A stretch of DNA of 64,000 nt, from the NCBI GenBank assembly GCA_019637075.1, contig JAHBWI010000006.1, positions 62,001-126,000 on the forward strand. The letters run 5' to 3'. The position numbers were made by a program, and so were the translations under genes. A model generated the notes under the pieces. The model saw only the letters and a program-made list of their open reading frames with translations, did no database searches and had not been told where the DNA came from. Source of the DNA: Nitrospiraceae bacterium (GTDB lineage: Bacteria; Nitrospirota; Nitrospiria; Nitrospirales; Nitrospiraceae). Shown here piece by piece: positions 11,686 to 17,872 of the stretch (positions are counted from its first letter, which is position 1; each line of letters opens with the position of its first letter).

Positions 11686-12234
11686 CTAAGAAGAAGATTC
11701 GGTAGAAGCAGGGGTCTGTTGAGCCGGTTGTGCAGGCGTCGCGGCCGATGCCGCTGACGCAGGGGGCTTCACTGGCGTGGGAGCAGTCGCCGTTCCAGCC
11801 GTCGCAGCCGCCGGACTTTGGGCAGTTGGCTTTGCGGGAGCGGCCGGTGCGGCACCTCCGGCGGGGGCCTTTACAGCGGCAGGGGGCGCAGTTGCTCCAG
11901 GGGTAGCCGACGCCGCACCGGCCGCAGGAGCAGCAGCTGGTTTCGGTGGCGCAGCCGGTTTGGGCGGAGCCGGTTTCTCGGGCTTGATCCCCCCTTCCCA
12001 GGATGGACCGGAATACATATCCGCCGAGAGCCCCTTCCCCTTCCACTTATCCTCGAAGTCCGCCGCAGCCTTGTTCGGCGTCTCTCCCGCCCCCACCACG
12101 TCGTTCCACGGATACACCTTGGGGCCGATCTGGCAGCCCGTTTCGGTCCGCCGCAGATATAGCGCAATGGGATTGCCGCGGTAGGGTCCTAAGAAGATAT
12201 GGACGGACCCGACGTATTCGAGCAAGTTGGCCAC
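11686..12234 (-). CDS. Hypothetical protein with Ala/Pro-rich C-terminal half
   Basis: 182 residues from a GTG start with SD GGAGGG. Residues 1-80 form a compact unrecognised domain (MANLLEYVGSVHIFLGPYRG; GCQIGPKVYPWNDVVGAGETPNKAAADFEDKW). The remaining 100 residues are almost only Ala, Pro, Thr and Gly with a few Lys, predicted disordered. No signal peptide. It may be a protein-protein or nucleic-acid tether, but no function can be assigned. Confidence 0.6.
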   Translation of the reverse strand: MANLLEYVGSVHIFLGPYRGNPIALYLRRTETGCQIGPKVYPWNDVVGAGETPNKAAADFEDKWKGKGLSADMYSGPSWEGGIKPEKPAPPKPAAPPKPAAAPAAGAASATPGATAPPAAVKAPAGGAAPAAPAKPTAQSPAAATAGTATAPTPVKPPASAASAATPAQPAQQTPASTESSS

Positions 12235-12324: not shown

Positions 12325-12849
12325 TCAGTGTGCGGGAACTACGGTCGGCGTGGGACGTTTGCGGAGAAGATAGACGGCAATGATAAGGACCAGTATCACC
12401 GTGACATTCAGCCCGACATCGACGACATATTGCTGAAACAATTCCGATTTCAATTCTTTGGCCGCCGCCTCCAGTTGGTGGGAGAGTTCGGCACTAGCCG
12501 TCAAAATCCGCCTTGTGCACGCAATGATTCCCACCGCCAGATAGGGTTCGAGCTCGAGGATCTCCGTCTGAAGAAACTTCACAACGGTGCGGAACAACTC
12601 CAGCAGGATGATGACGAGCAGCAGGTCATTGAGAAGTTTGAGGCCAGCCGGCAGCAGATCTACATGGTCGGGGCGTAACACGAACATGTACCAGGCATGG
12701 GCGAAGATGACCATTCCCAGGATCAACAGGCTGAAACCAGCGGTGATGTAGCCCAGCCGGTCGAGCCAATCCATGAACCCCAAAAGTCGCCGCATCGCGG
12801 CTCGTCGGGTCTTCTCGATCGCACCCGCTGAGCCAGCGTCGTCGTTCAT
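12325..12849 (-). CDS. PsiE-like phosphate-starvation-inducible membrane protein
   Basis: 174 residues with about four membrane helices (around residues 30-55, 65-90, 100-115 and 140-165). The segment FLQTEILELEPYLAVGIIACTRRIL matches the conserved core of the PsiE family, whose biochemical role is unknown. The start codon overlaps the stop of the upstream Cys/His repeat gene by 4 bp (ATGA), so translation is probably coupled. Confidence 0.75.
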   Translation of the reverse strand: MNDDAGSAGAIEKTRRAAMRRLLGFMDWLDRLGYITAGFSLLILGMVIFAHAWYMFVLRPDHVDLLPAGLKLLNDLLLVIILLELFRTVVKFLQTEILELEPYLAVGIIACTRRILTASAELSHQLEAAAKELKSELFQQYVVDVGLNVTVILVLIIAVYLLRKRPTPTVVPAH

Positions 12850-13232
12850 GCGTGACCTGCTGGTCCCGACGGCATCGGAGGCTCGCCCGAGCGATGGCCG
12901 AGTCTCAGATCATTGATTGCCCCGGTCGTCATGGTATGGCCACAGCAGGCGATGCCCTGGAAACCGGCGCCGCCGTCCATCACCATGACGCGTAGTCCGC
13001 AAGAATCGGGGAATTGCCGTTTTTCTTCCAACATGCCTCCAAGAGGAAGTTGGCCTTTTTTTCGGCCCCGCGACGGCAGAATGTCGGGGACCACATCGGC
13101 TTCCGTGAGCTCGTGGCCGCAACACTGGATCGCGTGAAAGCCGTCGCCCCCACCCACGATCTTCACCACCAGCCCACAGGAATCGGGAAACCGTTTTCGC
13201 TCGTCGAGAATATCCCCGCGCTTCAACGCCAT
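12846..13232 (-). CDS. Small protein with tandem Cys/His-rich repeat
   Basis: 128 residues built from two copies of a roughly 43-residue unit. FPDSCGL occurs at 15-21 and 74-80, and CCGH at 37-40 and 96-99. In both copies the single Cys is exactly 18 residues before the CC pair. The three Cys and one His per unit suggest metal binding, possibly Zn or Fe, but I do not recognise the family. No signal peptide. It is translationally coupled to the PsiE-like gene by a 4-bp overlap, linking it to a membrane partner. Confidence 0.7.
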   Translation of the reverse strand: MALKRGDILDERKRFPDSCGLVVKIVGGGDGFHAIQCCGHELTEADVVPDILPSRGRKKGQLPLGGMLEEKRQFPDSCGLRVMVMDGGAGFQGIACCGHTMTTGAINDLRLGHRSGEPPMPSGPAGHA

Positions 13233-13319
13233 GTCGCCTCCCGAACAGTTCGAGCGAACTGCTCCTGCTAGTGAATCAAAAACAGTAAGGAAAAGCCAGT
13301 ATAATCATCGGAGGCCCGT

Positions 13320-14504
13320 CTATCCGTGAACGACCGGCGAAGCTTCCGCCGGTTGAGTCCGGGCAACGGAGGAGGGATTGGCCTGCACGACCCGAGCGTG
13401 GGCTCTTGTGACGGAGTCCAGCAACACCCGGTGCGACCGGCAACCGACAACCAGACGCGCGTCGGAGATCGTGACAGGTCGGTACGGCAGGACATAGCGA
13501 GCTTTGACCCGCGCGATCCGACTCAACGACTGTCCCAGCCGCTCCTGTGTGATGCGGCCCTCCTTCACAGCAGCTTCCACCGCCTGCATTGCCGCCACCT
13601 CGCGTTCTTGATCCTTACAGATCAAGAGGATGTCGCAGCCCGCCAGAACCGCTCGAACCGCTGCTTCTCCCACACCGTAGTGGTCGATGATGGCATGCAT
13701 CTCCAGATCGTCGGTCAAGATCAGTCCATCGTAGCGCCATTCATCCCGCACCAGCCCTTGGATGATCGCAGGAGACAGCGTCGCGGGCAGCTCGGAATCC
13801 AACGCCCTATACAAGACATGCGCCGTCATCATGCTGGCTACGCCGGCTTTCGCTGCCTGCTGAAACGGAGGGAACTCCACCTCACGCAGCCGCTGCAGAG
13901 TAGCCTCCACGACCGGTAATTCTTTGTGGGAGTCCGTGGCAGTGTCCCCATGGCCGGGTACATGTTTGCCGCAGGCGACCACTCGATTGTCCTGAAGGCC
14001 TGACAACATCGCCATTCCCATCTCGCCGACCAACTCGGGCACGGATCCGAACGCCCGATCTCCGATGACCGGATTCTCCGGGTTACTGTCGACGTCCAGC
14101 ACCGGGGCCATGTTCATGTTAATGCCGACGGCGCGCAGCTCCTTCGCAACGGTAGCGGCGGCGGAATACGCCAGATCACGCGAATTGCACTGACCCAACA
14201 CTTCGCAGGGCGGGAAGATCGTAAATTCCTTGGGAAGCCGGGACACCCGTCCCCCCTCCTGGTCGATCGAGATGAGCAGGGGTGACTGAGCAGAAAGCCG
14301 TTGCAGGTCGTTGGTCAATTGGACGATCTGCTCCACGGACTCAAGATTGCGCCTGAAGAAGATGATGCCGCCGGGCCGATACTCCTTGATGAACGACGCC
14401 CACTCATTGGTCACGGTGGGGCCCGCAAACCCCACCATGAACAATTGACCGATCTGCTCTCGCAACGTCATAGCCACGATCACACCATCCCGTCGGGAAT
14501 TCAT
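13320..14504 (-). CDS. nagZ: Beta-N-acetylhexosaminidase (GH3, NagZ-like)
   Basis: About 394 residues. The GH3 signature KHVPGHGDTATDSHKELP carries the NagZ-specific His loop, and GLILTDDLEMHAI contains the catalytic Asp nucleophile. It removes GlcNAc from muropeptides during peptidoglycan recycling in the cytoplasm. The start is uncertain: ATG 14504 or ATG 14471, the latter directly before TLREQIGQLFMVGF where family similarity begins. The open frame upstream overlaps pepA and looks non-coding. The gene follows pepA by 50 bp. Confidence 0.9.
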   Translation of the reverse strand: MNSRRDGVIVAMTLREQIGQLFMVGFAGPTVTNEWASFIKEYRPGGIIFFRRNLESVEQIVQLTNDLQRLSAQSPLLISIDQEGGRVSRLPKEFTIFPPCEVLGQCNSRDLAYSAAATVAKELRAVGINMNMAPVLDVDSNPENPVIGDRAFGSVPELVGEMGMAMLSGLQDNRVVACGKHVPGHGDTATDSHKELPVVEATLQRLREVEFPPFQQAAKAGVASMMTAHVLYRALDSELPATLSPAIIQGLVRDEWRYDGLILTDDLEMHAIIDHYGVGEAAVRAVLAGCDILLICKDQEREVAAMQAVEAAVKEGRITQERLGQSLSRIARVKARYVLPYRPVTISDARLVVGCRSHRVLLDSVTRAHARVVQANPSSVARTQPAEASPVVHG

Positions 14505-14554
14505 TGCACGTGGCGCGGCGTCGGGGATGCGTTCCCCATCGACCGCGCCGGCAG

Positions 14555-16075
14555 TCAATGTTTCAACGTGCGGTCGATCAGGAACTGAATGAGAAGTCTC
14601 GTCCCGATGCCGGTTGGGCCCTTGGGGATATAGGCCCGTTCGCGCTCGCTCCAATCGGTGCTGGCAATGTCGAGGTGAATCCAAGGACAATCGCCGACGA
14701 ACTTGCTGAGGAACAGCGCAGCCGTGATCATCCCTCCCCCACGACCGCCGATATTGCGCATGTCGGCGACGTCGCTGCGAAGCTGCTCGAAATACTCATC
14801 CCACAGGGGCATTTCCCACACGCGTTCACCGGCCCGCAAGCCGGCCTTGCGCACCGACTCTTTTAGGCGGTCGTTGGTGCCGAACATGCCGATGGCGAAC
14901 TGCCCCAGCGCCACCACGCAGGCACCCGTAAGGGTAGCAATGTCGATCAGAGCCGCGGGTTTGTACCGCGTGGCATAGGCGAGGGCATCCGAAAGAATCA
15001 GCCGACCTTCGGCGTCGGTATTTTGCACCTCAACCGTTTTTCCGGACAGCGTCTTCACGACATCCCCCGGCTTCATCGCCCGACCGCCCGGCATATTCTC
15101 AGCGACGGGCAGGATGCTGATCAGATGCAGAGGCAACTTGAGCCGAGCCGCCGCGCGCATCGTGGCCATCACCTCGGCTCCGCCGGTCATGTCCGCCTTC
15201 ATCTGCTCCATGTTTTCGGAGGGCTTGAGCGAGATGCCTCCCGTGTCGAACGTGATCGTCTTCCCCACCAGCACAACCGGCTGCTCCGTTTTCTTCGCCT
15301 TCTCGCCTTTATATTCGAGAATGATGAACTTGGGCGGCTCGTGGCTGCCGCGCGCGACGCCCAGCAACGCCCCCATCCCGAGCTGCTCCATGTCCTTCTG
15401 CTCGAGTATCTTCACCGTCACGCCCGATTCCTTGGCCACTGCCTTAGCTTCGGTGGCAATCCGGCTTGGCGTCATCACGTTGGAGGGGTGATTGCACAGG
15501 TCCCGGACGAAGATGGTCGCTTCAGCCGCCGCAACGCCGCGTCGGATTCCCTCCACCAATTGCCGCTGCTGCACCCGTTGCGACGAATAGATCGTCATCC
15601 GCTCGACCTCGGACGGTTTGGCGCCGTTTTCGCTGCGGTAGGCGGTGAACTGATAACTTCCCAGAATCGCCCCTTCGGCCATGGTCTGGGCGAGATCCAG
15701 CGGCGACGCGCCGCGCGGCGCGTCCGAGGGCATGGCCACTGCAAAGGCGGTGACCTTCGCTAGGCGTACGCGCTTCACCGCGGCACCCAAGGCCTGGCGC
15801 ACGGCGTCCAATCGAAGATCCTTTTTCTTGCCCAGACCGGCCAGGATAAGCCGCTTGACCGGCGCTTTGTCCTGGGTGTGCACTAAGAGCAACTCGCCGG
15901 ATTTGCCTTCGAACTCTCCGCGGCGCACCAACTCAGTCAGGTGGCCAGCGAGCTGCTTATCGATCGCCGCGGCTTCCTGTTTGAGCCCCTCGCCTTCGCA
16001 ATGCAGCAGAACCAACACTTCTCCCGACTGTTGGTCGACTCGACCGATCTGCGCATCAACCTGAACAATCTTCAT
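14555..16075 (-). CDS. pepA: Cytosol leucyl aminopeptidase (M17)
   Basis: 506 residues from ATG 16075 (a GTG one codon upstream is the alternative; the SD GGAGG is better spaced for the ATG). The M17 signature NTDAEGRLILSDALAYA carries metal and catalytic residues, with further ligands in VGKTITFDTGGISLKPS. It releases N-terminal residues from peptides. The domain order (variable N-domain to about 170, catalytic C-domain) and length are normal. Followed by nagZ on the same strand, suggesting a joint peptide and murein turnover unit. Confidence 0.95.
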   Translation of the reverse strand: MKIVQVDAQIGRVDQQSGEVLVLLHCEGEGLKQEAAAIDKQLAGHLTELVRRGEFEGKSGELLLVHTQDKAPVKRLILAGLGKKKDLRLDAVRQALGAAVKRVRLAKVTAFAVAMPSDAPRGASPLDLAQTMAEGAILGSYQFTAYRSENGAKPSEVERMTIYSSQRVQQRQLVEGIRRGVAAAEATIFVRDLCNHPSNVMTPSRIATEAKAVAKESGVTVKILEQKDMEQLGMGALLGVARGSHEPPKFIILEYKGEKAKKTEQPVVLVGKTITFDTGGISLKPSENMEQMKADMTGGAEVMATMRAAARLKLPLHLISILPVAENMPGGRAMKPGDVVKTLSGKTVEVQNTDAEGRLILSDALAYATRYKPAALIDIATLTGACVVALGQFAIGMFGTNDRLKESVRKAGLRAGERVWEMPLWDEYFEQLRSDVADMRNIGGRGGGMITAALFLSKFVGDCPWIHLDIASTDWSERERAYIPKGPTGIGTRLLIQFLIDRTLKH

Positions 16076-16185
16076 CACGCCTCCACGTTCTGTCTATTCG
16101 CTGCAACTCGGGTCCCCGATTTCTCTCGTCCCTGCGCCCAGCCCCGTAACCGGCGCTGTTGGGCGGGCAGCACATCAGATGCTGT

Positions 16186-17788: not shown

Positions 17789-17872
17789 GCCGAAGTGGTG
17801 GAATGGCAGACACGCACGTTTGAGGGGCGTGTGGCGCAAGCCGTGCGGGTTCAAGTCCCGCCTTCGGCACCA
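17789..17872 (+). tRNA. tRNA-Leu (anticodon GAG)
   Basis: The acceptor stem GCCGAAG pairs with CTTCGGC, followed by encoded ACCA. The anticodon stem CACGT/GCGTG has loop TTGAGGG with anticodon GAG. The T-arm is GCGGG-TTCAAGT-CCCGC. A class II variable arm is present. It reads CUC/CUU codons. A second leucine isoacceptor sits at 422-504. Confidence 0.95.

Follow-up and report, generated by a model that had tools for sequence, protein, structure and literature searches.

Desulforedoxin from Desulfovibrio gigas (PDB 1dxg; PF06397/TIGR00319) consists of a knuckle of about 36 residues, the Dx domain, carrying the pattern CG-x-x-V-x-V-x-x-GG-x-G...CCG. Its metal is bound by four cysteines at positions 9, 12, 28 and 29, and the protein is a dimer of two Dx units. 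Most of what is known of the domain comes from anaerobes and superoxide reductases; it forms the N-terminal part of desulfoferrodoxin and 2Fe superoxide reductase (PDB 2ji1, 1vzg), where it precedes a superoxide reductase domain with an Fe(His)4Cys centre. PsiE membrane proteins (PF06146) form a widespread family to which, to our knowledge, no function has been assigned, and we know of no neighbour of the kind described below for PsiE of E. coli. A literature search returned no publication combining PsiE with desulforedoxin, and none combining PsiE with Nitrospira.

The 64,000-nucleotide stretch of a Nitrospiraceae genome analysed here (the window) carries at 12846–13232, on the minus strand, a gene for a tandem desulforedoxin-like protein of 128 residues, hereafter the module. 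Its two FPDSCGL...CCGH copies with equal 18-residue cysteine spacing, reported in the first-pass annotation, are indeed present: FPDSCGL occupies residues 15–21 and 74–80, CCGH residues 37–40 and 96–99, the distances C19–C37 and C78–C96 are both 18, and one copy follows the other at a period of 59 residues. Each unit therefore reads C-x17-CC-x-H (C19-x17-C37-C38-x-H40 and C78-x17-C96-C97-x-H99). Unit 1 comprises residues 1–50 (13083–13232, minus strand) and unit 2 residues 61–110 (12903–13052, minus strand). The two are identical at 22 of 45 positions (49%; 53 bits, E = 3e-17 for this single comparison), so the duplication is not a product of chance. The chain ends 29 residues past the second CCGH, with no obvious signal sequence seen in the protein, and a C-terminal superoxide reductase domain was not found in it by Pfam or NCBIfam, which sets it apart from desulfoferrodoxin.

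The module had been described as unrecognised and as suggestive of a new metal-binding fold, a claim that profile searches do not bear out. Members of the module family find their best Pfam match in Desulfoferrod_N (PF06397). The window protein itself scores below the curated Pfam cut-off of 23 (12.8 bits, E = 0.098), and two relatives exceed it (G153 and G085, with 25.5 and 24.8 bits, E = 1e-5 and 1.7e-5, respectively), their matched region corresponding to Dx profile positions 11–34; the genomic match of G153 is likewise above the cut-off. When units were searched separately, 9 of 17 matched the family, with a best E of 9.4e-5. A profile of the units compared with all PDB sequences gave four matches, weak (E = 0.46–0.66) and all to desulfoferrodoxin or desulforedoxin, the former being the best among solved structures; these are the only solved structures resembling the unit profile. 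The window protein searched alone against the PDB gave only aminotransferase matches at chance level. A second-best resemblance to a zinc site, that of the Rtf2 RING finger (PF04641, best E = 8.8e-4, below its cut-off), was set aside.

Profile–profile alignment (hhalign) of the units with 26 Dx domains from the same phylum yielded probabilities of 90–93% (93% with 116 units) and scores of 29–31. When the columns of the Dx profile were shuffled with the cysteine columns held fixed, none of 200 shuffles reached the real score (29.1 versus a maximum of 21.7), so the similarity extends beyond the cysteine pattern. An AlphaFold model of one unit (mean pLDDT 67) could be superposed on 1dxg with an rmsd of 2.2 and a Z of 2.3, covering 35 of the 36 desulforedoxin residues, a result that is weak taken alone, given the modest model and the three chains compared; it nevertheless points to agreement with the Dx family. 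For the full-length protein, the AF2 model (pLDDT 47) was of insufficient quality for use. One might still suppose an unrelated small metal-binding fold that came to resemble desulforedoxin by convergence, considering the low score of the window protein and the lack of any Foldseek match. The two relatives above the PF06397 cut-off, a similarity greater than that of every cysteine-fixed shuffle and, with the reservation that it is model-based, the nearly complete structural alignment make such convergence highly improbable. Descent of the module from the Dx family is well supported, and judging by its sequence each unit is very probably a divergent Dx-like domain. What remains of the original description is the form itself: duplicated, probably metal-binding and outside existing models, as the first ligand cysteine is lost and the CC-x-H histidine gained.

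The CG-x-x-V-x-V-x-x-GG-x-G...CCG pattern of desulforedoxin recurs in the module with its elements in unchanged order, over a knuckle of about 36 residues. The ligand set departs from that of desulforedoxin. The cysteines of Dx positions 12, 28 and 29, visible in the PDB profile alignment, correspond to C19, C37 and C38 in unit 1 and to C78, C96 and C97 in unit 2, so that three of the four ligand cysteines are kept in each unit. The complete set of CxxC plus CC is not found: among the residues listed, neither unit of the 65 distinct sequences has a cysteine at the equivalent of Cys9, mostly having proline there, as with P16 in unit 1 of the window protein. Two extra residues precede the CC pair, and a longer N-terminal part carries an invariant glutamate (E11 and E70, eight residues before the first cysteine, in 65 of 65 sequences). 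The module is thus not a standard Dx member but a variant of this known domain particular to one lineage.

Conservation of the remaining positions is nearly complete. C19, C38, C78, C96 and C97 occur in all 65 distinct sequences, and C37, H40 and H99 in 64 each, the only exception among the cysteines being a protein from a short contig with GC in place of the first CC (L019). A histidine stands two residues past the CC pair in 128 of 130 units, and in none of the 26 collected Dx domains. The two deviating units come from G270 (L082, unit 1, CCDS, with serine) and G284 (L077, unit 2, CCGR, with arginine), and in both proteins the partner unit retains its histidine, so this residue may be dispensable in one of the two units. 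Taken together, the candidate ligands are C19, C37, C38 and H40 in unit 1 and C78, C96, C97 and H99 in unit 2.

This pattern makes it likely that the module binds metal. In the simplest reading the CC-x-H histidine restores the fourth ligand, most likely replacing the missing first cysteine, and each unit would hold one tetrahedral Cys3His site with Zn or Fe; for this particular coordination, with one site per unit, we put the chances at even. The invariant glutamates E11 and E70 are candidates for an alternative or additional ligand. The protein would then be a small, probably cytosolic metalloprotein with two tandem degenerate desulforedoxin knuckles. In contrast to dimeric desulforedoxin, its two units are joined in one chain, and the duplication may represent a one-chain version of that dimer, probably a pseudo-dimer. 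A site that has lost a thiolate would be expected to prefer Zn or, with iron bound, to have a higher redox potential. The sites may serve electron transfer, the sensing of redox or metal state, or a purely structural purpose. From a conserved, duplicated, altered-ligand form in aerobic nitrite oxidisers one would learn how the Dx knuckle is re-tuned.

Two other uses of the same residues have to be weighed against a mononuclear Cys3His site. Iron–sulphur clusters with 3Cys-1His ligation exist, as in mitoNEET and IscR, and the invariance of E11 and E70 would suit either such a cluster or a site drawing on the glutamates as well. Vicinal cysteines are likewise known to bind a 2Fe-2S cluster in FhuF (PMC8068687). 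The order C-x17-CC-x-H and the GGxG loop nevertheless match Dx rather than the CC-x10-C-x2-C of FhuF or the mitoNEET motif, and we regard a cluster or a glutamate-containing site as unlikely. Alternatively, with only three cysteines left per unit and the first ligand gone, the cysteines could form disulphides or carry out thiol chemistry in a metal-free protein. A cytosolic metal site is favoured by the vicinal CC with its near-invariant histidine a constant distance away, by the Dx background and by the lack of an obvious signal sequence, leaving metal-free chemistry with a small probability.

Of 196 genomes of the order Nitrospirales, 122 carry homologues of the module, with about 50–80% identity and nearly all without an internal stop; their presence across the order, almost always stop-free, indicates a real gene rather than a chance open reading frame. 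The gene is old within the order. In a sample of 295 genomes of the phylum, homologues occurred in 61, besides a few matches at chance level. No convincing homologue was found outside Nitrospirales in this sample or among other phyla, the latter scanned for near relatives only, and within the range tested the family occurs only in nitrite-oxidising Nitrospira and their relatives. The search for single-unit proteins that had been proposed in the first-pass annotation found none of the module type in the phylum. Matches outside the order (best E = 3e-4) lacked the motif, were ordinary desulforedoxins or contained stops. A search of plasmids gave one meaningless match, and one of viral contigs gave none.

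Dx-like proteins with longer loops from other classes of the phylum (L118–L125) still have the complete CxxC and fall outside the family. These small proteins combine their long-loop desulforedoxin-like domain with a Lys/Ala-rich, histone-H1-like stretch (e.g., in G142, G203 and G093). Apparent fusion proteins in G127 (545 residues) and G284 (504 residues) are most likely open frames extending into upstream genes in another frame.

The gene downstream of the module (12325–12849, minus strand) encodes a membrane protein of 174 residues, whose PsiE-like assignment in the first-pass annotation is confirmed by a nearly full-length match to PF06146 (positions 4–121 of 122; 41.4 bits against a cut-off of 23.9, E = 1.9e-10). 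The reported ATGA overlap between the module stop codon and the PsiE start is also present (12846–12849); it is not general, as the aligned PsiE part starts about 0–260 nt downstream in relatives. Beyond PsiE lies a gene at 11686–12234 (minus strand) for a conserved protein with no Pfam match; its N-terminal 85 or so residues are mostly 60–90% identical across the order and are followed by an Ala/Pro-rich tail.

On the upstream side, the module is preceded by nagZ, encoding a glycoside hydrolase of family 3 (13320–14690, minus strand; PF00933, E = 9.9e-94), present at 21 of 21 loci and probably having its true start internally, near 14470. Next comes pepA, a conserved leucyl aminopeptidase gene (14555–16078, minus strand; PF00883, E = 1e-127). 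The usual order in the window and 20 further loci from about 20 genera is HAD phosphatase–queE–pepA–nagZ–module. The module has its more constant neighbour in nagZ, found ahead of it at almost all loci examined; in some genera the two are separated by an MFS-type (ATG22-like) transporter gene. A tRNA gene is located farther along the window, at 17789–17869 on the plus strand (Rfam RF00005, 51 bits).

The suggestion that the module hints at a partner of PsiE holds in part. An adjacent PsiE, within about 260 nt, accompanies the module in 89 of 122 genomes, and the two genes were lost together in two clades; the module persists without adjacent PsiE in the other 33 genomes. A similar PsiE is encoded elsewhere in nine of these 33, and none of that type was found in the remaining 24, a few such modules being situated at the end of a contig. 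Modules without PsiE include five examined loci in the family of the window genome and most of a second family sampled, and adjacent PsiE is missing in every module-bearing g14 genome. Conversely, six loci lacking the module, from a subclade of g2, also lack PsiE, with nagZ followed directly by the gene of the 11686–12234 type. In a pepA tree built from 36 loci that were picked to show different states, the state with neither gene requires two changes, a small number of events, both fitting loss of the module–PsiE pair; PsiE was also lost alone with the module kept. PsiE without the module was never seen among the loci examined. This asymmetry fits a dependence of PsiE on the module and not the reverse.

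The same distribution can be read differently, with the module having a separate housekeeping role, PsiE being a mere operon neighbour and the co-loss reflecting deletion of a short dispensable stretch. Retention of the module without adjacent PsiE in over a quarter of its genomes, all those of g14 included, speaks for this, as do nagZ, pepA, queE and the HAD gene, more constant neighbours than PsiE in a locus otherwise made of unrelated housekeeping genes. Moreover, PF06146 genes are common across the phylum in the absence of the module, most of them lying in genomes that lack it. Against it stand the one-sidedness of the pattern, in which PsiE alone is never found at the locus and the opposite is common, and the fact that both independent losses of the module removed PsiE too. 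We give this housekeeping role a substantial probability, somewhat short of an even one.

A functional link between the module and PsiE is, in our estimate, evenly poised, PsiE being a plausible though not an obligatory partner. The module would probably be a soluble adaptor acting on the PsiE membrane protein in response to metal or redox state, encoded alongside it in most lineages. As a whole, a two-site Dx-derived metalloprotein acting with PsiE is the explanation that we favour by a slight measure. The stronger proposal that a one-chain, Cys-to-His desulforedoxin dimer constitutes a dedicated metal- or redox-sensing soluble subunit of PsiE is speculative and rather improbable; if true, it would offer the first biochemical handle on the function of PsiE proteins. 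The module gives the PsiE family a named candidate partner open to testing, and annotation is now possible for a hitherto anonymous Nitrospira protein.

Between nagZ and the module lies a conserved non-coding element of 31 nt, CTGGHTTTT-N11-YTGMTTSACTA (13269–13299, minus strand). The element or a close match, with its conserved blocks, is present in 16 of 16 aligned upstream regions from the window genome and its nearest relatives, in which the surrounding DNA has diverged. A promoter scan found no sigma-70-like promoter at the element, and Rfam gave no family there. The module–PsiE pair may have its promoter or operator in this element. A role as a regulon signature was rejected, since the genome holds a single exact copy and two matches with three mismatches are at chance level. 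Immediately ahead of the module's ribosome-binding site, the window also contains an inverted repeat, GAACAGTTCG-AG-CGAACTGCTC (13243–13264), which is not evident in the upstream regions of relatives. In three relatives without PsiE (L011, L015 and L183), the 31-nt element looks shortened, its spacer deleted.
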